Shown: piece after piece, positions 3,640 to 42,597 of the stretch
Numbering within the stretch: position 1 is the stretch's first letter
How the letters are laid out: each line of letters starts with the position of its first letter
Origin: a virus
Length of the DNA stretch: 43,346 nt
IMG/VR virus record: IMGVR_UViG_3300034105_001793
Location: 1-43,346 of that record
Direction: 5' to 3' (one strand)
Program-made: the position numbers and the translations under genes
The notes under the pieces: model-generated
Database searches by the model: none
What the model was told of the DNA's origin: nothing
What the model saw: the letters and a program-made list of their open reading frames with translations, nothing else

Positions 3640-4611
3640 TCAGAGATCGTCTTCTTCAATAAAAACTTGAACCTCTGATAAATAAGTCCATTCACCTAGA
3701 ATTTCTTCATGCTCTAAGAATTCAGAGTCATCCCAATCCCACTCTGTATCATCTTCATCACTTAAAAGAAAATCTTCTGAAGCCATAGACGAAACAGGTT
3801 TCTTGCTCCAAAACTTACAACTCCAATAACGAGCTTTCCATTTTGGGCCAACATTAGTATCGCACTGATGTCTTGCTCTAAAGTTCTTTCTGCGATTTGG
3901 ATCATCTCTTTTGATCTCCATGTTAGGATCTCCAAACTTCACCATTACGACGTTGCCCTTGTCATTCTTGACATACACGCCAAACTTCTTGTTGGAACCG
4001 CTAGGCAGTCTGAATGGCTTGTTGAGAGTCTTCTTTTCAGCTTCTGAATACTCGATATCGAATAGATCAATATTAGCTTCATCATCTAAATCTACATTCG
4101 CTTTGATCAAATCAATTCTAGCCAAATCAAAATCAATAGAATCAAATTCCCAAAAACAATCTTCAGAATTCTGTTCGTAATATAATTCAGAACCAGAAGC
4201 AACATCTTGATCAGCGGCACGATAAGAATCTTTAACTTTACCTCCGCGCATCATTTTTAAGAACATATTAACTCTCGCCATAGCCCAGCTGCTTCTGCTT
4301 TGATTTGGGCGATGAGAAGATGAAAAAGCACCAAGACCTCTTCTGTAAACTTTTTTCAACTGAGACAATGAAACTTTCTTGTCATACTTTTCATTATGAG
4401 AAGTAACTTTTTCTTGAAGAGAGTTTGTAATTTTTTCGGCAAACTCAATTTTTCCACCGTCAGTTCCAGCAGATCCTTTTTTGTTTTTATCTGAACCTGT
4501 TTTTTGATCAGATTTCGGAGCAGGAGTTTGAGCGGAGCTTCTCGGCCCAGATCTTTTTGCTTCCGAGTTATCAAACAACTCTTTGATTCTTAAAGAAAAG
4601 TCAACTTCCAT
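3640..4611 (-). CDS. Charged phage protein of unknown function
   Basis: I do not recognise a function. The 323-residue product has a polar, low-complexity N-terminus (about residues 18-50, rich in Lys, Ser, Gly and Pro). Next comes a compact segment at about residues 87-120 containing VYRRGLGAFSSSHRP and SWAMARVNMFLKMM, then a strongly acidic C-terminal half (DDTEWDWDDSEF). The middle segment resembles a short motif I recall from many uncharacterised phage and large-virus proteins (R-G-x-G-A-[FY] ... RP ... W-A-x-A-R-V-N-x-F); I give that recollection low weight. A GTGTAA element lies 14 nt upstream of the ATG, so the gene may have its own phage promoter inside the nrd transcription unit. It lies between the ribonucleotide reductase and glycosyltransferase genes. 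Confidence 0.6.
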   Translation of the reverse strand: MEVDFSLRIKELFDNSEAKRSGPRSSAQTPAPKSDQKTGSDKNKKGSAGTDGGKIEFAEKITNSLQEKVTSHNEKYDKKVSLSQLKKVYRRGLGAFSSSHRPNQSRSSWAMARVNMFLKMMRGGKVKDSYRAADQDVASGSELYYEQNSEDCFWEFDSIDFDLARIDLIKANVDLDDEANIDLFDIEYSEAEKKTLNKPFRLPSGSNKKFGVYVKNDKGNVVMVKFGDPNMEIKRDDPNRRKNFRARHQCDTNVGPKWKARYWSCKFWSKKPVSSMASEDFLLSDEDDTEWDWDDSEFLEHEEILGEWTYLSEVQVFIEEDDL

Positions 4612-8350: not shown

Positions 8351-8934
8351 AAATTATAGGAATTTCTGGTGCCGCAAGAAGTGGCAAAGACACATTTGCT
8401 GATTGTTTAATCGAAGTTCTTAATGCTCGCGGAATTAAGGCTAAAAAGTTTTCTTTTGCAAATCAGCTAAAAGAAGAAGTAAAAGACTTTCTCCAATCTA
8501 CAATTGGGATTGACGCTTTTACTCAAGATGATGAGGAAAAAAAGATTATTCGTCCACTTCTGGTTACATGGGGAACTGAAGTCCGCAGAAAAATCAATCC
8601 TAATATTTGGATCGAGCATGTTGAATCTGTTTTGGAAGATGATTGTGTCAACATCATAACCGACGTTCGATTCACCAATGAAATGGAATGGCTTAAAGAT
8701 AAGTCTGGATATTCTGTTTTCATCAATAGAGTACTGAAAGATGGAAGTTTTGTTGAGCCAGCCAACCAAACAGAATCAGAAAATAATTCCGTACTGATTA
8801 ATCTTTGCGACTTCCAACTTTCTTGGTCAACTGTAGACAACTTGGACATACTAGTTGCTGTCGCTTATGAAACCCTTCACAATATTGTTCCACAAGAGGA
8901 AATTGAATCATGGACTCAGATTTGTCGCTTATAA
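8347..8934 (+). CDS. Deoxynucleoside monophosphate kinase-like protein
   Basis: This 195-residue P-loop protein phosphorylates deoxynucleoside monophosphates towards dNTPs if it acts like T4 gene 1 kinase. The Walker A loop is GAARSGKDT (residues 8-16), the variant with Asp after Lys seen in phage dNMP kinases. IITDVRFTNEMEWL at about residues 97-110 carries the D-V-R-F/Y-x-N-E motif typical of that family's substrate region. The start is a GTG overlapping the dUTPase stop (GTGA), and its end overlaps the next gene by 25 nt. With ribonucleotide reductase and dUTPase nearby it completes a nucleotide-supply set. Thymidylate synthase and kinase are not in the window. Confidence 0.85.
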   Translation: MKIIGISGAARSGKDTFADCLIEVLNARGIKAKKFSFANQLKEEVKDFLQSTIGIDAFTQDDEEKKIIRPLLVTWGTEVRRKINPNIWIEHVESVLEDDCVNIITDVRFTNEMEWLKDKSGYSVFINRVLKDGSFVEPANQTESENNSVLINLCDFQLSWSTVDNLDILVAVAYETLHNIVPQEEIESWTQICRL

Positions 8935-9479
8935 ATAAAATCAAAGAGGAGAATGATAGCAAAAGCCTCACTGAGCTTATCAATCGTCATTCTGGAATTT
9001 ACATGGACATAGTCAACAAGACTGTTTCTGATTCATGCTCTTTCGTAAATAAAAATGATATTTTAAAAGATAAAGATTATTCCATATACTCTGCTGCTTT
9101 AAAATACAAGTCTGATAAAAATACCAAGTTCCCGACTTATCTAGCAAACGAAACTCGTTGGAAGTGTCTTAATATTTATAATAAAAATAAAAAAATGATT
9201 GAGGAGCCTCTCGACGATTCTTTAAAAGAAAAATCAAGTCGAGAAGATTTTCTTTCCGACATTCAAGCAAAAGAAACAATTAAAAATATCTTGGATATGG
9301 CGAATAAACATTCTGATCCAAGAGTCAAAAAAATTATTGACATGAGGTATTCTTTCGGCTATAATAAAGCCTGCTCTTGGAGAGAAATTTCTAAAGAGCT
9401 GGGTATGAGTATTCAAGGATGCATTGATATTCATAACAAATTCATTAATAAAGTAAAACAGGAAATTAAAAATGTATAA
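8910..9479 (+). CDS. Sigma-70-like RNA polymerase sigma factor (early block)
   Basis: The 189-residue product has the two-domain layout of small sigma factors. Residues about 50-95 (DKDYSIYSAALKYKSD ... FPTYLANETRWKCLNIY) resemble sigma region 2, where a K-F-x-T-Y-L stretch precedes the -10 recognition helix. Residues about 142-186 contain a helix-turn-helix (SWREISKELGMS ... IHNKFINKVK) resembling region 4. It is encoded among replication genes behind a host-type promoter, which would suit a factor that redirects host RNA polymerase to later phage promoters. Its start overlaps the kinase gene by 25 nt and its end overlaps ssb by 8 nt. Similarity is by pattern only; an anti-sigma role is possible but less likely. 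Confidence 0.6.
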   Translation: MDSDLSLINKIKEENDSKSLTELINRHSGIYMDIVNKTVSDSCSFVNKNDILKDKDYSIYSAALKYKSDKNTKFPTYLANETRWKCLNIYNKNKKMIEEPLDDSLKEKSSREDFLSDIQAKETIKNILDMANKHSDPRVKKIIDMRYSFGYNKACSWREISKELGMSIQGCIDIHNKFINKVKQEIKNV

Positions 9480-11674: not shown

Positions 11675-12493
11675 TTAAAAAGATTGTAAAAATGTTCTTC
11701 TCCATCCTCCAGTAGCTCCAGTGCAAACATATAATCCACTTCCGCTGATTCTTAACTCTCCCAGTTTACCAGCTTGAGATGATAAACCATTGAATGTTGG
11801 TAGTATTAAATTTACTTGCCCAGTGAATGATCCTGCACCAAAGATATTATTCGCAGCGTTGACTCCAAAATAATTTGAACCTTGCGCATATTCTCCAAAA
11901 GTATTAAATAATACACCACTTCCAAAAGAGTTCGAAGTCACAGGACTAACAGGATCTGCACCGTCGCCAAAACTATTAGTATTAGCGTCAAATCCAAAAA
12001 AATTCAAGAAAGATACCGATCCGAAAGAATTTGATGAAGTTGCGTCATTCCCGAAATAATTTGAAGCCGAAGAACCTCCAAAATAATTTGATCCTATGGT
12101 GTTGTAATTTCCAAAAGAATTACTCGGGCAATAATCTCCAAAAATATTAGTTGCTATAGCATACTCTCCAAAATAATTAGTCTCAGCATACTGTCCAAAA
12201 GAATTGAATGAAGTAACATTATCTCCAAAATAATTATTAAATGCATCAGATCCAAAACTATTTTCTACTGCATTATCTCCAAAAAAATTTGCTGGAGCTG
12301 AATTTCCAAAACTCACAGCAACTATATTATTGGTAAATGTCTTTACTCCAGCTATTGTTTGTGTGCCAGTTCTAGCAACAACATTAGCGCTGTTCCAATT
12401 GACTGCTGTATTATCACCCAATGTTATATTGGTGCCGCTTTGATTCAACAAATATCGAAACGTCGTATTAACTGGATTTGGACCTAAATTCAT
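11675..12493 (-). CDS. Tail fibre-type protein with tandem N-x-F-G repeats
   Basis: Residues 1-60 contain TGTQTIAGVKTFTNNI, a sequence type common at the start of phage fibre shafts. Residues 61-219 are a tandem array: one VSFG followed by 16 copies of N-[SYFIT]-F-G, mostly 9-10 residues apart (for example N78-G81, N87-G90, N106-G109). The last 50 residues (GELRISGSGLYVCTGATGG ... WRRTF) resemble the C-terminal module often found in phage fibre and appendage proteins. The regular spacing suggests a beta-helical or beta-roll shaft, probably trimeric; this is inference. A GTGTAA element ends 9 nt before the ATG. Probable role: host recognition or a tail-tip appendage. Confidence 0.7.
   Translation of the reverse strand: MNLGPNPVNTTFRYLLNQSGTNITLGDNTAVNWNSANVVARTGTQTIAGVKTFTNNIVAVSFGNSAPANFFGDNAVENSFGSDAFNNYFGDNVTSFNSFGQYAETNYFGEYAIATNIFGDYCPSNSFGNYNTIGSNYFGGSSASNYFGNDATSSNSFGSVSFLNFFGFDANTNSFGDGADPVSPVTSNSFGSGVLFNTFGEYAQGSNYFGVNAANNIFGAGSFTGQVNLILPTFNGLSSQAGKLGELRISGSGLYVCTGATGGWRRTFLQSF
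11837..12313 (-). repeat. Tandem N-x-F-G coding repeats in the fibre gene
   Basis: Each unit of 27-30 nt encodes N-x-F-G plus five or six variable residues. At DNA level CCAAAA(A/T/G)(A)ATT recurs throughout on the plus strand. Two spacings are longer, 11 residues (N125 to N136) and 15 residues (N173 to N188); the latter carries a Pro-rich insertion (DPVSPV). Such arrays can expand or contract by recombination. Confidence 0.85.
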
Positions 12494-12502
12494 TTCTTTT
12501 AT

Positions 12503-12508
12503 TTACAC
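12503..12508 (-). promoter_or_regulatory. GTGTAA promoter-like element upstream of the fibre gene
   Basis: On the minus strand this reads GAGGTGTAAATAAAAGAA followed by the ATG; the core ends 9 nt before the start codon. It sits in the 22-nt gap after the upstream tail-tube-like gene, so the fibre gene can be transcribed separately. A purine-rich AAAAGAA precedes the ATG, but no typical Shine-Dalgarno sequence is present. Confidence 0.6.
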
Positions 12509-22762: not shown

Positions 22763-22788
22763 AAATAGTCCTTACTCCTTTGTCCTAT

Positions 22789-22794
22789 TTACAC
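22789..22794 (-). promoter_or_regulatory. GTGTAA promoter-like element and Shine-Dalgarno site of the tape measure gene
   Basis: On the minus strand TTTTGTGTAAATAGGAC is followed by AAAGGAGTAAGGACTATTT and the ATG. The core ends 26 nt before the start, the longest distance in this window, and it is the only motif-preceded gene here with an obvious AAGGAG ribosome binding site in between. This contrast supports the idea that the element is transcriptional rather than a ribosome signal. Confidence 0.55.
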
Positions 22795-30206: not shown

Positions 30207-31349
30207 TTAAGCAAGACCAGAAACGATCTTACCAACGAGAGCGCGGGTATCGAGAACCATACGACCTTCTTCAAGAGAGCCGAAGTAACCGATCTTGCTC
30301 TGACGAACGCTGTATTGATCATCAGCGGTAAGAGAGAACTCAGAACCGTTTTCAGAATCAACAGCAACTGCGCGGATAAGAGAATCACGGGTACGATCAA
30401 GACCAATGATGATTTCTTCGTTAGTTCCATCAAACACAGCGGAATTTCCGCCAGCTGCATTGGTGAATGCGGTACTTCCAGCTACAACATCAAATACAGT
30501 ATTGAAGCGTTGGCCTTTACCAAGCTCATTGATTTCCATGATCGAAACACCGTAGAACTCAGGGATACCTGCGCTGTTGTAGATAGAAGTTCTCATATCT
30601 TCTGGAGCAGCAAGATCGGTGACGATTGCACCGCCAGCACCACCACCTCTGGTGTTGATTGGATTGTAAGCCATTGCACGAAGCTCTTGAACAACTTCTG
30701 GAGAAACAATGATGTCAGTCAAACCGCGACCTTGGCGAGCTTCTGGAGTACCACCAAGCCATGAGGTATTGATTCTCTTGGCAAGAGTGAAGAGTTCGTT
30801 AAGATCTGCAAGCAAGAAGCGACCATTGGTATTAGCACGTTGAACGTGTTTCTTACCATTAGTTGTAGCACCAGCAAGTGAACCTAAAAGAAGGTTAGCA
30901 GAAGTCTTCTCTTGTTTGAAGAGAATTTCTTGTGCAAGACGAGTAAAGGTCTTGCTGATAACATCCATACGGCTCTTAGCAGCATAGCGCTTGTCAAAGC
31001 TCAATGCGGAATCAAGAGTATAGGTGTGGATCTTCATTTCAGAAACAGTTGGTAAAACTTGGTTCTGAGGAAGACCACCAGCTGCGCTTTGGCTATATAC
31101 AGTGATATAGTCTTCAGCAGCTACGTCGTAGTATAAATCGAGCGGAATGCTTGGATTGTCATCAGCGTTGAATTGAAGTGGAGTGAACAAGTTGCTCAAG
31201 GTAGGAGCGTTGTTGATAACTTCAGCTAAAACTGGACCGATGAATTCAGCAAGAGCGACTTGAGCTTCCATCGCAACAGCGCGATTTCTTGAAGCCATAG
31301 CTTTGATTAACTCGATTTGTTCAGGAGTTCTTTTTAAAGTAATTTTCAT
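30207..31349 (-). CDS. Major capsid protein (HK97-like fold)
   Basis: The 380-residue protein is the probable shell subunit. It has the order expected for HK97-fold capsid proteins: a helical N-arm, DLYYDVAAEDYITVYSQSAAGG at about residues 71-92 (E-loop region), helical FDKRYAAKSRMDVISKTFTRLAQEI (spine), FLLADLNELFTLAKRI, TDIIVSPEVVQELRAMAYNP (P-domain) and EFYGVSIMEINELGKG. Position after portal, protease-scaffold and decoration genes and before a strong terminator fits. Codons look more GC-rich and uniform than in the glycosyltransferase series, as expected for a very highly expressed gene. No N-terminal cleavage site can be named with certainty. Confidence 0.88.
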   Translation of the reverse strand: MKITLKRTPEQIELIKAMASRNRAVAMEAQVALAEFIGPVLAEVINNAPTLSNLFTPLQFNADDNPSIPLDLYYDVAAEDYITVYSQSAAGGLPQNQVLPTVSEMKIHTYTLDSALSFDKRYAAKSRMDVISKTFTRLAQEILFKQEKTSANLLLGSLAGATTNGKKHVQRANTNGRFLLADLNELFTLAKRINTSWLGGTPEARQGRGLTDIIVSPEVVQELRAMAYNPINTRGGGAGGAIVTDLAAPEDMRTSIYNSAGIPEFYGVSIMEINELGKGQRFNTVFDVVAGSTAFTNAAGGNSAVFDGTNEEIIIGLDRTRDSLIRAVAVDSENGSEFSLTADDQYSVRQSKIGYFGSLEEGRMVLDTRALVGKIVSGLA

Positions 31350-35640: not shown

Positions 35641-38600
35641 TTAATGAATAAACATTGGAACAAATGTAGATTGCACAGTTTCTTGCGGTGTAGACATCAT
35701 ATCATAATATACATTCATCATCCAATTGCCCAACACAAGAGCGGAGTAAGAGTCTTTTCTTGCTTTGTCAGCTCCTCTTTGCTTTTTAAGATTAAGCGGC
35801 AAATCAAAACTTTGAGTTCCTTGTGTTGAACTGGATACTTGAATTAAGGCGCATTGAACTTTAATCGTATCAACACTGTCTTTAAGATGCTCAATAAAGT
35901 CGATCATTTTTGCTCCTTCATTTTTTTCATCGTCAATACGCAAGAATTTTAAATCAGCAATGGGAATGTTTGCTGTTTTTTGTCGAGTGAAGTCATCGTT
36001 CATAGCCATGCTTGCAAACCATATGTTTCTATGATCAAATGCTGACTGCAACAACTCATTCGCATATCTTATCCAAAAAGAACTTGGCTTTCTTAAAAAT
36101 ACGATTCTTTTGGATTCTAAATTATATTGATTTCTAGCATCGCGCAAGGATTTTTCATATTCTTGAGTGTTGTCTAAATCAGCATCAAAACATTCTAATT
36201 TAAAATTGTTCTTTTTGAATAATTCACTTTCGTTGCAAGAATTTAGAAACTGCACTCCACCATTATAGTCTCCTACAACAGCAACCACATTAAATGATGT
36301 CATCAAGTAGTAGAAATACTCAATGTGCTTTTTCAAGTTGGTGCCAGACAAAGCATACGAGTGAACCACGATGCCTGTTCTTTGATTTGGCTGTAGTTTG
36401 ATAACTTGCATAGCGAAATCATCAGAACCATCACTTTCAGACCACGATGGGTCAAACGATACAATGTATTTTGCTTTAGAATCCCCTATTACTTCGACAC
36501 ACTGCCCTTCTCCGTCTGGAACAGTGCATTGAGCCATCTTGCTTACCTTGAAGTATCCAGAGCTATCGTCTGTGAACACAGAGCCGAATTCTCGCTCGAA
36601 CTGTGCAACACTCATGGTAGCTTTTGATTGGTCTAGAAGGTTGGCATCGTAAAGCTGCTCTGGAGCGCAATCATAACTTAAGTGCATAATAACTCTATGA
36701 GCTTTATCTTTTTGATCGGGATTCATAATCAAGTTTTCATACTGCAAATAAAGCTTGTATAAATACTCGAATCGATAACTTGCCGAAGACAGTCCAATGA
36801 TTTTGTTGTGAGGCCAAATATGACGCTCAGATTCTTCCATTTTGCCTTCTTGTATCATCTTGGTTTCTAAATCATAAACTTGTTGTCTTTCAGTAGGATT
36901 TTCTACAACAGCCAAGAACGGTAAAATAACTTCGTTGAGAATCTTTTCTGGCATCAATAAAAGCTCATCGATAATCATTCTTTGGAAACGGAAACCACGA
37001 AGTTTTTCACCATCACCAAGAGGCAGTGCTGTGATTTTACTTCTTCCAATTTCCATAACCCATTCATCATTGCTTTTAGAAACTCTTGTAATACACTGAG
37101 ATAATAATGCAGCTTTGGGACTTCTAGAAATATCTTCGATCTTTCTGAAAATCATCTTTGACTGTCTAAATGATTTACTAATAATCCCAATGTGAACACC
37201 CTGATTAAATATTGCATCTAGAATAGCAAACACAGCTGTTGAGAATGATTTGGAAAGACCTCGCGAATTATGGTGAACAAAACCGTTTCCAACATAACAC
37301 TCTTCATTTTCTACAGTGATATCGACAGATTTAACTAAGCAAGAGTCAATCGATTTAATCTCAGAAAAAATTACATTTTCTTTCTTTATATCTTTTATGA
37401 TACTCTCTGTTTCGAGAGATAAATTTTTTAAAATATTTAATTCATTTTGAGAAAAGCTTTTGCCCCAAGATCCTTTTCGGCCTGTTAATTTTTCTCTTGA
37501 CCCATCTTTCTTTAATATTTCTGAGAAATTTGGAATTAAATTATTTTGATAGTTTCTAGTTTTAGATCTATTAATAATTTTTTCTAAATTGTGTTTTTTA
37601 TGAGGAACTATGAAGTCTATTGAGTTTTTAAATTCGGTAAGAGATTTTTCATCATTTGATATCACTAAATCATAATATGGAACGCCTTTATGCTCTCCCG
37701 ATTTGCGAAGGAAAGATTGAACTCCCATGTTATTTAAAATCATTTTTATCTGACGTAGCAATTCAATAGAAGTATTTTTGATACCCACTTTACTATTCTT
37801 ATCAAGATAGGAAGCATAACCATCAGCATCGAAAACCCCACCAATCAATGCGCAAAGTTCATTTCTAGAACATTGAAGTAAACCATCACATATAACTTTA
37901 TCTTTAGATTTTAAAGACATGTTCCATCCTATTTGTTCTAACCACTTAGATAGTTTTCGATTAAATATTGAATACTCATAAAAGCTTAAATTTTTAGTTC
38001 GCTGACGAGCATAACTTTTAAATTCATTATCGCGAATGAATTTTAAACACATCTCTTGGACTTCATAACTTTCTGAGCAATAATGCACTCCATCTTGATT
38101 TACCCATCCATCGCCCAATACATAACCTAATAAATAAAATAAATAAGGAGATCTTTTGATTTCCGAGCCATTGGTGATATCTTTATTTCCCCATACCTCA
38201 GTTTTTATTTTAATTGGCAAATGATCTCCAATTGACAGATCTTGTATATTTTTAAATTCAAAATTTCCATTGTTATAAGCAAGAACCTTATGTCCAATTT
38301 TAGCTTTAAAAGAATCGCCAGATTTTAAATGAATACTTAATCCCTGTTCTTTTGGATTAAACTTTTTATCTAAAACTAAATTAATATTATTTCTAGATCT
38401 GACAGATTCTCCGACGTTAATATCTTTGATCTTTTTAAATCCTTCGCTAGATAAAACGTATTCATTTTCCTCCAAACACCAAATGCCTAAAAAGTAATCC
38501 GTTTCCATCATAGACTTGATTGCTATATGTTGGAACGGGAATAAACTAACTCCAGTGATTAATTCGGTGGCAAAAGATGGATTCTCTCGCAAGAATTTAT

Positions 38601-38712
38601 ATAAAAGAACCTTTGCTTTTTTCTCTTCTATAAAACCTTTGCAATCAAGAATTTCTTTATTTACATTGTTGAATTTTTTATTTAATTTCTGCGATCCTTC
38701 TTGCCAACTCAT
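35641..38712 (-). CDS. terL: Terminase large subunit containing an intein
   Basis: This is the packaging motor ATPase and headful or cutting nuclease. The 1023-residue precursor contains a 404-residue intein (residues 79-482); the spliced protein has 619 residues. After splicing, IW joins SRGLSKSFS, restoring a Walker A loop of the S-R-G-x-[GS]-K-S type used by T4-like terminases. Walker B is MIIDELLL (D582-E583). The C-terminal RNase H-like nuclease begins at YIVSFDPSW (D754), with VVGDYNGGVQF supplying another acidic residue. Without splicing the ATPase is interrupted. It overlaps the upstream ERCC4-type nuclease gene by ATGA. Confidence 0.94.
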   Translation of the reverse strand: MSWQEGSQKLNKKFNNVNKEILDCKGFIEEKKAKVLLYKFLRENPSFATELITGVSLFPFQHIAIKSMMETDYFLGIWCLEENEYVLSSEGFKKIKDINVGESVRSRNNINLVLDKKFNPKEQGLSIHLKSGDSFKAKIGHKVLAYNNGNFEFKNIQDLSIGDHLPIKIKTEVWGNKDITNGSEIKRSPYLFYLLGYVLGDGWVNQDGVHYCSESYEVQEMCLKFIRDNEFKSYARQRTKNLSFYEYSIFNRKLSKWLEQIGWNMSLKSKDKVICDGLLQCSRNELCALIGGVFDADGYASYLDKNSKVGIKNTSIELLRQIKMILNNMGVQSFLRKSGEHKGVPYYDLVISNDEKSLTEFKNSIDFIVPHKKHNLEKIINRSKTRNYQNNLIPNFSEILKKDGSREKLTGRKGSWGKSFSQNELNILKNLSLETESIIKDIKKENVIFSEIKSIDSCLVKSVDITVENEECYVGNGFVHHNSRGLSKSFSTAVFAILDAIFNQGVHIGIISKSFRQSKMIFRKIEDISRSPKAALLSQCITRVSKSNDEWVMEIGRSKITALPLGDGEKLRGFRFQRMIIDELLLMPEKILNEVILPFLAVVENPTERQQVYDLETKMIQEGKMEESERHIWPHNKIIGLSSASYRFEYLYKLYLQYENLIMNPDQKDKAHRVIMHLSYDCAPEQLYDANLLDQSKATMSVAQFEREFGSVFTDDSSGYFKVSKMAQCTVPDGEGQCVEVIGDSKAKYIVSFDPSWSESDGSDDFAMQVIKLQPNQRTGIVVHSYALSGTNLKKHIEYFYYLMTSFNVVAVVGDYNGGVQFLNSCNESELFKKNNFKLECFDADLDNTQEYEKSLRDARNQYNLESKRIVFLRKPSSFWIRYANELLQSAFDHRNIWFASMAMNDDFTRQKTANIPIADLKFLRIDDEKNEGAKMIDFIEHLKDSVDTIKVQCALIQVSSSTQGTQSFDLPLNLKKQRGADKARKDSYSALVLGNWMMNVYYDMMSTPQETVQSTFVPMFIH
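37267..38478 (-). mobile_element. Intein with LAGLIDADG homing endonuclease in terL
   Basis: The element encodes 404 residues. It begins with C79 (CLEENEYVLSSEGFKKI, splicing block A) and ends CYVGNGFVHHN followed by Ser as the +1 extein residue (blocks F and G). A block B-like IGHKVLAYN lies about 60 residues in. Two LAGLIDADG-type motifs, LGYVLGDGWV and LIGGVFDADGY, at intein residues about 116-125 and 211-221, mark a homing endonuclease of the two-motif class that appears intact. The insertion point is immediately before the Walker A Ser, a conserved site that limits loss of the intein. The AT-rich coding matches the phage. Confidence 0.93.
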
Positions 38713-39647: not shown

Positions 39648-40689
39648 CTTCTTGTGAAATTCCTAGTATTCTGCTTTTCCATTCAGCCATTCCCTCTAAG
39701 CGATGAGCTTCCTCTTTGATAAGAGCTTTCTGCATCTCCGCGATATTAACCATGTTGATTCTCTCTTCTTCGTCTTGAAAGGATTGAACCAAAGAAAGAA
39801 TTGATGCATTTTCTTTGTGTCTACTTTTCATACGTTCAGAGCGATCACCCTGAAGCTTTTTAGTAAGATTTTCAATTCGAGTTTCGCACTGATGGTATTC
39901 AGAACTTTTTGCTTTAATAATCTCAGATAGGCGCACGCTCATTTCTTCTTGATCATTTGTAATGTCAAAAATATCATTAAGTTTATTCAAGTGTTTGCTA
40001 ACGACTTCCAAATTAACAATTTCCTTGCACACGTTCATGTACAAGTTAATTTCATCAGCAGTTAAATCAGGCTTGTCCCAAGTAAGACGGATGAATTCAT
40101 GCTCGAACAATCCCCTATCTTCTTTAGATGTATAATTATTTACAATTTTTAAAAATCTTGAATTATTTAAATTGATACCCAACCTATCTACACATACCTT
40201 ATGTTGCCTATTAATCTTCTCATCCTGCAATTCACTGCCAGTTGCATCGTTGATCTTCTTGACGATTCGGCTCGTCGATTTCGGCGCTACATAACTGTTT
40301 AATCCAACATCACTATCCTGTGATGGGGAATAATCTGGGTTAATTTCATTAATGACGCTAAAGACAGCTCTTTGCTCAAGCGACAACGGTTTTATTTCCT
40401 TGTCAGGAAATAAAATTTCTGCAATGCGCAAAGAAGAAGATCCTCCGTTGGCATGTTCGACAATGAAATCCTTTTGCTGCTTGGTAAACTCGATTCCTTC
40501 TTTTTTTACGCGAGTTGACGTTTTGAACTTCAAGCCAGCTTCAATCATATAAGATCTAATCAGTCTTCCTTCTTTGCTTCTACCGTCGATATCTTGGTTG
40601 TCGAAAACAATTCGGGTAATATCGTTAAGATCTGTTGTTTTTCGATATGTATCTTTGATTTTTTGTTTTTGTTCTTCAGTTAAAGTCAT
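39637..40689 (-). CDS. DNA-binding-type protein, small terminase candidate
   Basis: I do not recognise a family. The 350-residue product has an N-terminal region of about 120 residues with two helix-turn-helix-like segments (KIKDTYRKTTDLNDITRIVF and KDFIVEHANGGSSSLRIAEILF). It then has a helical middle (residues about 190-290, with ISVRLSEIIKAKSSE-type helices) and a coiled-coil tail (LTKKLQGDRSERMKSRHKEN, MQKALIKEEAHRLEGM). N-terminal DNA binding plus helical oligomerisation is the plan of small terminase subunits, and the gene lies two genes before terL. At 350 residues it is about twice the usual size. It overlaps both neighbours. The role is inferred from layout. Confidence 0.5.
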   Translation of the reverse strand: MTLTEEQKQKIKDTYRKTTDLNDITRIVFDNQDIDGRSKEGRLIRSYMIEAGLKFKTSTRVKKEGIEFTKQQKDFIVEHANGGSSSLRIAEILFPDKEIKPLSLEQRAVFSVINEINPDYSPSQDSDVGLNSYVAPKSTSRIVKKINDATGSELQDEKINRQHKVCVDRLGINLNNSRFLKIVNNYTSKEDRGLFEHEFIRLTWDKPDLTADEINLYMNVCKEIVNLEVVSKHLNKLNDIFDITNDQEEMSVRLSEIIKAKSSEYHQCETRIENLTKKLQGDRSERMKSRHKENASILSLVQSFQDEEERINMVNIAEMQKALIKEEAHRLEGMAEWKSRILGISQEDVI

Positions 40690-41372
40690 AAAATTATATC
40701 GTATTCATTAATAATGTTTTCGGCTTTTTCCTTTAACATTTTTTTCAAATTCTTTATCTGCTTGTAACCAGCTTTGCGATTCTTTTCATTGCTTTTATAG
40801 CCCATAAACTTAGCGACTTCTTCTTCGCTTTTATGTTCGAAGAACAGCATGATATAAACTGTGTAGTGAGGTTCGGAAAGTTGCTTCTTTAAAAGATCGT
40901 TTAATTTTAAAACAGAATCACAGAAATCTATGCCCGAATCATGTTTCTGATTAACCTCTTGAGTATGATTCTCCATTGGAAGTGGAAGCTTGATACCATA
41001 GCCAGATTGTTTTCGCTTGGTCCATTTGGCGTATACAGCACAAGAGGAGTTTTGAATACCATTGCTGGTGGCAGCGCATAGATTATCTCCCATATTAAAC
41101 TTGCACTTCATGCACGGCTTAACGTAGTTGGTATAGTTGTTGCGTATGGTATTTTTGATTTGATTGGAAGCTATTCGAGCAGCCCAAGGCTCCAATGGCT
41201 TTGTTTGATCCCACATGCTCCACTTGTTATAAATGTGGATCTTAATGTTCTGAGATACATCGTCAAAATCAAACCAATTAATAGCTTTTAACTGCCATTT
41301 TTTTTTAAATTTTTGAACTACCAAATCAATGATATCGGAACAATCCTCGTATGTTTTTAAATTATTCTCCAC
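40686..41372 (-). CDS. Sigma-70-like RNA polymerase sigma factor with a cysteine-rich insertion
   Basis: The 228-residue protein has sigma region 2 at about residues 33-82 (FDFDDVSQNIKIHIYNKWSM, then PWAARIASNQIKNTIRNNY), the -10 recognition and melting region. Its region 4 helix-turn-helix is at about 165-215 (YTVYIMLFFEHKSEEEVAKF). Between them is an unusual insertion with four cysteines, C87-x2-C90-x8-C99-x11-C111, probably binding zinc. The start is a GTG overlapping the zinc-ribbon gene by 11 nt, so the two proteins are probably made together. It is a good candidate for the factor that reads the GTGTAA promoters. ECF-like size, but the insertion is not part of normal ECF factors. Confidence 0.72.
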   Translation of the reverse strand: MENNLKTYEDCSDIIDLVVQKFKKKWQLKAINWFDFDDVSQNIKIHIYNKWSMWDQTKPLEPWAARIASNQIKNTIRNNYTNYVKPCMKCKFNMGDNLCAATSNGIQNSSCAVYAKWTKRKQSGYGIKLPLPMENHTQEVNQKHDSGIDFCDSVLKLNDLLKKQLSEPHYTVYIMLFFEHKSEEEVAKFMGYKSNEKNRKAGYKQIKNLKKMLKEKAENIINEYDIIL

Positions 41373-41730
41373 GACGGGTTTTTTGATTTACGAAATCGTC
41401 AACGCTGGCAGCTGATCTGCGGCGTGTTGTTTTGGGAGCTTCAGAGCCTTGGCCAAAAATAGATCCTAAAGAAAAGGAGTTATATTCAGATTCATGCTCG
41501 ATCTCGAATTGAAATTTATTAATTTGAGGAACATGTTCCGCGCTAGAGTTTTCTGGGTCAGAATCATCATCATCATAATCATCATCATTGCTCGACAAAC
41601 GAGCTTTGGATACAGCCTTTGGTTTTTCTAACATTGCCGCCATTGCATTTCCGCAACTCGAACAGAACTTAGGCTTGGAATAATTATATGTATGTTTTGA
41701 ACCGCAGTTAGGACAAAAAATAGAAATCAT
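41362..41730 (-). CDS. Zinc-ribbon protein coupled to the sigma factor gene
   Basis: The 122-residue product has an N-terminal zinc ribbon with C6-x2-C9 (FCPNCGS) and C22-x2-C25 (FCSSCGN), followed by an acidic Asp/Ser-rich linker (DDDYDDDDSDPE) and a basic, Ser-rich tail ending KTRRGE. Zinc ribbons of this shape occur in transcription-related proteins, and its 3' end overlaps the start of the sigma gene by 11 nt. It may be an accessory factor for the sigma, such as an adapter to RNA polymerase. The Asp run is encoded by a tandem ATC/ATG-type trinucleotide stretch near 41566-41588. TTATAATAG lies just before its ATG. Confidence 0.65.
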   Translation of the reverse strand: MISIFCPNCGSKHTYNYSKPKFCSSCGNAMAAMLEKPKAVSKARLSSNDDDYDDDDSDPENSSAEHVPQINKFQFEIEHESEYNSFSLGSIFGQGSEAPKTTRRRSAASVDDFVNQKTRRGE

Positions 41731-41784
41731 ACTATTATAATGTCTTTAAATGGTTGTTTTTCCAGTTAATTTTTCCGACGAAAA

Positions 41785-41843
41785 GACAAGGCCACCACCT
41801 GTTATAATTTAGCATCCGCTGCGTGCGTTGTGGTAGCCTTGTC
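41785..41843 (-). ncRNA. Candidate structured RNA between phoH and the zinc-ribbon gene
   Basis: Arms at 41785-41798 and 41830-41843 form a 14-bp stem around a 31-nt loop. Read on the minus strand the arms are GACAAGGCTACCAC and GTGGTGGCCTTGTC and pair completely with one U-G wobble; on the plus strand the same position is a C-A mismatch, so the fold favours minus-strand RNA. A GTGTAA element ends 9 nt before the first paired base, so its transcript would start at the hairpin. A short U-run (TTTTCGTC) follows. It could be a small RNA, a protected 5' end or a large-loop terminator for phoH. Confidence 0.5.
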
Positions 41844-41852
41844 TATATTTAT

Positions 41853-41858
41853 TTACAC
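41853..41858 (-). promoter_or_regulatory. GTGTAA promoter-like element in front of the intergenic hairpin
   Basis: On the minus strand this reads CTACAGTGTAAATAAATATA. It overlaps the last codons of phoH and shares TACAGTGTAAATA with the element upstream of phoH itself at 42592-42597. No start codon follows for 120 nt; instead the 14-bp hairpin begins 9 nt after the core. It is the only copy with an extended match that is not next to a gene start. Confidence 0.5.
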
Positions 41859-42581
41859 TGTAGCTCCGATTTTTTCCAATTTAGACACTAAAAACTTAAG
41901 AATTTCACTGCGAACAATATCTTCGTGAGAGAATGAGAATGTTTGCACTCCTTTGTCTTTGCTTTCTTTATCATTAAACAGATCAAACATGTTTTTAAAG
42001 CCAGAGCGATGACCGATATCACTTTGCATAATATCTCCACACATAATAAGCTTGGTGCCTTCGCCAACTCTTGTGATCAAAGTGGTTAATTCTTTCAAAG
42101 TAAAGTTTTGGCATTCATCTGCCACAACAATTTTGTCTGTCCAGCTTGCGCCGCGCAAAAAGTTAATTGGCACAGCACTGATCATTTCTTGCTTCTTTAA
42201 CCAAGCAACATCTTGCGGCTGTACAATCTCTTCGAGTTTGTCGTATAAAGGCATCAAGAACGGATCGAACTTTTCGGCAATATCACCTGGCAAACTTCCC
42301 AAACCTTTGTCAGCACTTTCGGCAATGCTTCGAACATATAGAAGTTCTTTTTCACGATCCGCCGCCATGAGTTGAATCGCGGCATAAATCGCCATGTAAG
42401 TTTTAGATGATCCTGCTGGTCCAGAAACAAAAACAATAGAATTGTCTGGATTGAGTATGATATTTAAGAATCGAACTTGCTTGTCTGTAAATTTGAATTT
42501 GCGAGGTCTTGTTCGGATCTTATGTTCTAATTGAGGGTGGAACTCAAGAGAACCCGACTTGTCGAGTTTTTTCTTTGCCAT
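41853..42581 (-). CDS. phoH: PhoH-like ATPase
   Basis: The 242-residue P-loop ATPase has Walker A GPAGSSKT (residues 54-61) and Walker B IVVADECQN (D155-E156). Family segments include KGLGSLPGD and EKFDPFLMPLYD (about 92-114), FLRGASW (141-147) and MCGDIMQSDI, in the order of bacterial PhoH and phage PhoH-like proteins. It is compact because it lacks the N-terminal part of longer PhoH proteins. The function is an RNA-related NTPase of uncertain role, very common in phages of aquatic bacteria. A GTGTAA element ends 10 nt before the ATG, and no clear Shine-Dalgarno is present. Confidence 0.9.
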   Translation of the reverse strand: MAKKKLDKSGSLEFHPQLEHKIRTRPRKFKFTDKQVRFLNIILNPDNSIVFVSGPAGSSKTYMAIYAAIQLMAADREKELLYVRSIAESADKGLGSLPGDIAEKFDPFLMPLYDKLEEIVQPQDVAWLKKQEMISAVPINFLRGASWTDKIVVADECQNFTLKELTTLITRVGEGTKLIMCGDIMQSDIGHRSGFKNMFDLFNDKESKDKGVQTFSFSHEDIVRSEILKFLVSKLEKIGATV

Positions 42582-42591
42582 TCATTTATAT

Positions 42592-42597
42592 TTACAC
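42592..42597 (-). promoter_or_regulatory. GTGTAA promoter-like element upstream of phoH
   Basis: On the minus strand this reads TATACAGTGTAAATATAAA, with the core ending 10 nt before the phoH ATG. It lies in the 23-nt gap after the tail-tube-like gene and would drive the phoH, zinc-ribbon, sigma and terminase series. Confidence 0.6.

Follow-up and report, generated by a model that had tools for sequence, protein, structure and literature searches.

The packaging RNA of phage phi29 is a phage-encoded structured noncoding RNA which forms part of the packaging motor. The put RNA of phage HK022 and the leader pseudoknot of T4 gene 32 are structured, lie at the 5' end of a transcript and act in cis on the transcript which follows. 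Pseudoknots are frequent operator or aptamer folds, and ToxI RNAs are arranged as tandem repeats. Comparative analysis of large phages revealed manA and wcaG of cyanophages, structured RNAs of unknown function in the presumed 5' UTRs of metabolic genes, of which manA may contain a pseudoknot (PMC2864571). RNA antitoxins of the ToxI type are small pseudoknot RNAs; ToxI binds protein and adjoins a toxin gene (PMC5772629). STAXI is a small pseudoknot RNA which occurs as repeated units (PMC2864571). The late promoters of phage T4, read by gp55, consist of an 8-bp box one turn upstream of the start, with no -35 (PMC2988020).

We describe here a locus of an uncultured phage (IMG/VR record IMGVR_UViG_3300034105_001793, positions 1-43,346; the whole stretch of 43,346 nt is referred to as the window) which very probably carries a separate structured noncoding RNA gene of approximately 60-75 nt, shared by a group of uncultured phages (Table 1). 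Like manA and wcaG, the RNA is phage-borne, structured and found comparatively; unlike them it looks like a separate unit. It resembles ToxI and STAXI in being a small pseudoknot RNA, and differs from them in being a single unit within a long stem. Nor does it have the setting of a type III antitoxin: it is present in single copy, flanked by phoH on one side and a zinc-ribbon gene on the other, not by a toxin gene. With put and the gene 32 leader it shares a structured RNA at a (predicted) transcript 5' end, but here the gene which follows has its own promoter box. The phi29 packaging RNA is larger, and the two have no sequence or fold match. The window had no matches to Rfam 15 at gathering cut-offs; the best result of a permissive scan of the RNA site was AbsR25, with 15.2 bits against a cut-off of 47, and five relatives from other classes had no Rfam match at the RNA. 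No description of this RNA was found in the part of the literature which was covered. It appears to constitute a new family of phage-borne structured RNA with a distinct architecture and, apparently, its own promoter.

Table 1. Features of the RNA locus in the window and its neighbouring genes
Feature	Position	Strand	Basis
phoH, upstream neighbour	41853..42581	minus	PF02562, E=3e-47
GTGTAA promoter element (putative), about -14 to -9	41853..41858	minus	position-fixed upstream hexamer
Predicted +1, first P1 base	41844	minus	14 nt from GTGTAA G, equal to modal G-to-ATG distance
Outer stem P1, 5' arm	41830..41844	minus	fold and covariation
Pseudoknot S1, 5' strand (CGC)	41825..41827	minus	
Pseudoknot S2, 5' strand (GCA)	41820..41822	minus	
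Pseudoknot S1, 3' strand (GCG)	41817..41819	minus	
Pseudoknot S2, 3' strand (UGC)	41812..41814	minus	
Variable single-stranded segment, pseudoknot to P1	41799..41811	minus	low identity within classes
Outer stem P1, 3' arm	41784..41798	minus	fold and covariation
U-run (UUUU) at P1 3' end, terminator-like RNA end	41781..41784	minus	sequence and T-run enrichment
-35-like box (TGGAAA), putative separate promoter of zinc-ribbon gene	41759..41764	minus	34 nt before ATG
Zinc-ribbon protein gene, downstream neighbour	41362..41730	minus	weak Pfam matches, below cut-off
Sigma-like gene, candidate GTGTAA reader	40686..41372	minus	Sigma70_r2, E=3.7e-5, 23.9 bits (cut-off 24)

A gap of 122 nt after phoH precedes the ATG of the zinc-ribbon gene, in agreement with the gene-free gap of about 120 nt in the initial annotation of this DNA. 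The minus-strand RNA from 41844 to 41784 reads AGACAAGGCUACCAC-AA-CGC-AC-GCA-GCG-GA-UGC-UAAAUUAUAACAG-GUGGUGGCCUUGUCU, followed by UUU. The arms of its outer stem, P1, form 15 pairs including one U-G; the single wobble had been recognized before, but the stem had been given as 14 bp. Between the arms is a 31-nt loop which holds a conserved core, AACGCACGCAGCGGAUGC. Neither this core nor the overlap of GTGTAA with the phoH stop codon, described below, had been recorded. The minus strand folds at -30 kcal/mol, compared with -19.5 (sd 2.8) for dinucleotide shuffles (z -3.8; 0/200), while the plus strand folds more poorly (z -2.9), and the covariance-model score is 71 bits on the minus strand and 22 on the plus. 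The hairpin of the initial annotation is confirmed. As an inverted repeat with a single fixed location in the genome, the element might instead be a DNA-level palindrome serving as a protein-binding, replication or packaging site. We regard this as the most improbable of the readings considered here, in view of the strand-specific score, of the kept pairs (seven G-U against three A-C mismatches), of a pseudoknot pairing which has no clear sense in duplex DNA, and of the promoter spacing.

Relatives of PhoH were found on 80 viral contigs in a first scan, and the regions downstream of phoH were compared. Nearly all possessed, 3' of phoH, GTGTAA, a short spacer rich in A and T, a stem whose sequence varies, and the kept core. 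Two further PhoH scans from diverged members added relatives, again nearly all with the RNA element; from the sample numbers we take these later relatives to be marine for the most part, and those of the first set to come largely from fresh water. Altogether 110 distinct RNA variants were counted, which fall into five classes, A-E. When the model is derived from class A only, it recovers class B members at the corresponding site (E=0.012 for L148, in 721 kb; E=0.0026 for L054), and the classes therefore appear to be homologous. The hairpin was found in every close relative, a comparison by which the initial annotation had let its proposal be judged. RNA-bearing members of the first set are distributed throughout its PhoH tree, in which class C falls within class A. 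The RNA and GTGTAA have both been lost in one clade (L070, L071, L074, L076, L078) which retains phoH, the zinc-ribbon gene and its -35-like box, and the two most distant rows of the tree (L080, L081) are also without the RNA. The adjacency of the RNA to phoH is fixed; since PhoH persists in the clade which lacks the RNA, a dependence between the two is not indicated.

The window and six long relatives, searched with a descriptor and the covariance model, contained no credible second RNA, giving one copy per genome. Occurrences of the core pattern away from phoH in viral contigs (L088, L090, L092, L101, L102, L104, and also L151, L156, L158, L159, L171, L173, L174, L177, L180, L186, L190, L194) were put down to chance, there being no zinc-ribbon start after them; the same applies to the sole bacterial match (L200), which lies inside an efflux-protein gene. 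A small protein was rejected as the product of the locus, as a 1-nt loop difference between the window and L006 shifts any reading frame and class B is without the ATG.

The core fits an H-type pseudoknot, composed of S1 (CGC/GCG) and S2 (GCA/UGC) and enclosed by P1. Class A sequences in a plain MAFFT alignment were tested for covariation, with shuffles and slid partners as controls. Paired cells amounted to 92.4%, against 83.7% in the shuffles and 27-45% in the slid controls; nine pairs had double changes, and none of 500 shuffles was equally good. Among the variants the two strands of P1, and likewise those of the pseudoknot stem, change together. Compensatory changes in the stem had been named beforehand as the mark of a conserved RNA, and the covariation shows one. 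In S2 the two sides are altered together to give GCA/UGC, ACA/UGU, GCU/AGC, ACU/AGU, GCC/GGC and AGC/GCU, the exceptions being three variants with ACU/AGC and one with UGC/GCU. S1 becomes CAC/GUG in class C, a nested clade, and GGC/GCC in L230; its outer pair is A-C in 18 of the 19 class D variants. S2 is fully paired in 106 of 110 variants (shuffled mean 43.5), but because class patterns partly fix the letters counted, the S1 and S2 counts over the 110 variants are weaker evidence than the class A alignment test. Swaps of P1 arms between variants were moderately discriminating only, 149 of 1867 being as good as self.

S1 and S2 are each only 3-4 bp in length, and loop 3, with 1-2 nt in some variants, is tight for a pseudoknot; the two helices could instead be alternative hairpins. 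Identity within classes is 76-96% for the core and 40-63% for the first 12 nt of the adjoining single-stranded segment. Directly after P1 (41776-41783, minus strand, in the window) is a kept tail, which reads UUUUCGUG in most of class A and might base-pair with the GCGAAA in the core, perhaps as a switch.

The TAA of the GTGTAA element doubles as the phoH stop codon in the window. The sequence GTGTAAATA occurs four times in the window (0.39 expected); all four copies are on the minus strand, a short way upstream of a gene or of this RNA. A hexamer scan covered 860 predicted genes in seven phage sequences, i.e. the window and the six long relatives. GTGTAA was the most position-concentrated upstream hexamer, with 82 of 102 occurrences 14-18 nt before the ATG (mode 14), and TTGACA is concentrated 34-38 nt before the ATG in the same gene set. 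A Shine-Dalgarno-like sequence was found near none of 92 GTGTAA genes, and no conserved -35 column was seen upstream of such genes. The spacing of GTGTAA and TTGACA fits leaderless transcripts which would start at or near the ATG; starts of this type are found in the window at 12500-12508, 22786-22794 and 42589-42597, and in relatives G001-G012. In the more distant, presumably marine, relatives the GTGTAA spacing is unchanged. Portal-like and tape-measure-like genes carry GTGTAA, from which we infer that the genes with this element are late.

GTGTAA is located upstream of 95 of the 110 RNA variants. The distance from its G to P1 has a median of 14 nt in class A; the commonest values are 14 and 12 in class B, and 17-18 in class E. 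Fifteen of 19 class D variants (L206-L234) have GTGTAG or another sequence in place of an exact GTGTAA though the RNA is kept, suggesting a changed promoter. The initial annotation had GTGTAA starting transcription, and the hexamer, at its fixed spacing, does behave like an element of a promoter. Its nearest analogue would be the T4 late promoter. Judged by its spacing to the ATG, GTGTAA is likewise a short, -10-only element approximately one helical turn upstream, with no -35, and like T4 the phage may encode a sigma-region-2 protein, the match here falling just under the Pfam cut-off. The element itself differs from the T4 TATA box, and most of the genes read from it appear to be leaderless. 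The borderline sigma-like gene lies two genes downstream of the RNA. A second sigma-like or transcription-regulator ORF (8910-9479, plus strand) in the window has weak matches to PHROG 36 and 351. Repeated intergenic palindromes, TCGTTGA..TCAACGACTTACG with GACCCC.ACGGGGTC, occur in L139 (about 4469-4565) and L122 (about 7493), and not in the window; the GTGTAAG within them looks unrelated to the promoter.

In the window the G of GTGTAA is 14 nt from the first paired base of P1. Since this equals the modal G-to-ATG spacing of the leaderless genes, the RNA probably begins at the stem or a few bases from it, and the start predicted in the initial annotation is supported. A T-run of at least four is present near the end of P1 in 60% of the variants, compared with 21% of random windows (class A 71%, E 91%, B 43%, D 5%, C 0%). 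The loop exceeds the length which the terminator scan accepts. Such a run, in an element directly 3' of phoH whose GTGTAA overlaps the phoH stop in the window, would also suit an elaborate intrinsic terminator or 3'-end stabilizer of the phoH mRNA, insulating the next operon and having a loop of little importance. This is unlikely: the 31-nt loop holds the best-conserved letters of all, S2 covaries, the promoter element is upstream of P1 at +1 spacing, and in classes C and D the structure persists with no clear U-run.

Upstream of the zinc-ribbon/sigma operon, where the element is found in all RNA-bearing relatives, a cis-acting leader (an autoregulatory site or riboswitch) controlling that operon could be imagined, pseudoknots being common in such a role. 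Yet a -35-like box lies between the RNA and the gene in most relatives: of the 39 distinct upstream regions with the RNA, 28 have TNGAAA or TTGA 33-36 nt before the zinc-ribbon ATG, as do all three distinct regions without it. The T-run after P1 also speaks against a leader, which we consider improbable. Two functions offered in the initial annotation, a protective cap for the zinc-ribbon/sigma mRNA and a regulatory leader for sigma synthesis, are not supported in view of this same evidence and of the RNA-lacking clade, which keeps both box and gene; the third, a small noncoding RNA, is the best of those offered. Because the RNA-lacking clade is also without GTGTAA and yet keeps the zinc-ribbon gene and its box, promoter and RNA would be gained or lost as one unit, the zinc-ribbon gene being independent of both. 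Being structured and placed where a transcript from a phage promoter is predicted to begin, the RNA might also be a cis element bound by RNA polymerase which renders the transcript terminator-resistant, in the manner of HK022 put. That is very improbable for an element of single copy per genome, often followed immediately by a T-run, when many other GTGTAA promoters have none like it.

The locus instead has the appearance of an independent noncoding RNA gene, with a putative promoter of its own, conserved structure, no conserved coding and separable neighbours. Comparison of the sequences shows that it is structured, conserved and present once per genome, that its promoter spacing is fixed, and that it is separable from the next gene. 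We infer that the RNA is transcribed, with the ends given above and late in infection. The phage-type, probably late, promoter GTGTAA would start an RNA whose first base is the first of P1; this would fold with P1 closing the pseudoknot, and in most clades would end at the U-run right after P1. The RNA would then act in trans, presenting the pseudoknot fold to a protein of phage or host, and P1 would serve mainly as clamp, end protection and terminator. A fold recognized by protein is favoured because the conserved letters are in the pseudoknot while the single-stranded parts vary. An antisense RNA is disfavoured, the single-stranded segments being the least conserved parts. Taken as a step by itself, binding of a protein has in our judgement a nearly even chance. 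We favour a protein-binding, trans-acting late RNA. More tentatively, and at rather less than an even chance, it may be the founding member of a new phage RNA family, a stem-clamped H-type pseudoknot with a dedicated late promoter, which binds a protein, such as RNA polymerase, the adjacent PhoH or a nuclease of the host or of a defence system, and alters it, and which has been kept through the radiation of a large group of freshwater and marine phages.

Among isolated phages nothing matched the region as DNA, and neither the sigma-like protein nor the protein encoded at 30207-31349 had a match; weak portal and terminase matches were the only ones, and no cultured close relative or host can therefore be named. 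The large terminase gene of the window (35641-38712, minus strand) carries an intein with a LAGLIDADG domain, and the ORF at 11675-12493 (minus strand) is rich in N-F-G repeats and perhaps specifies a repetitive fibre-like protein.

Small RNAs of lytic phages are seldom found from sequence alone. This RNA, with predicted ends, a covarying fold, an associated promoter and an occurrence in many environmental phages, may be searched for directly in metatranscriptomes. The putative promoter code of these uncultured phages, GTGTAA and TTGACA at fixed distances before apparently leaderless starts, would be of use in annotating their transcription units.
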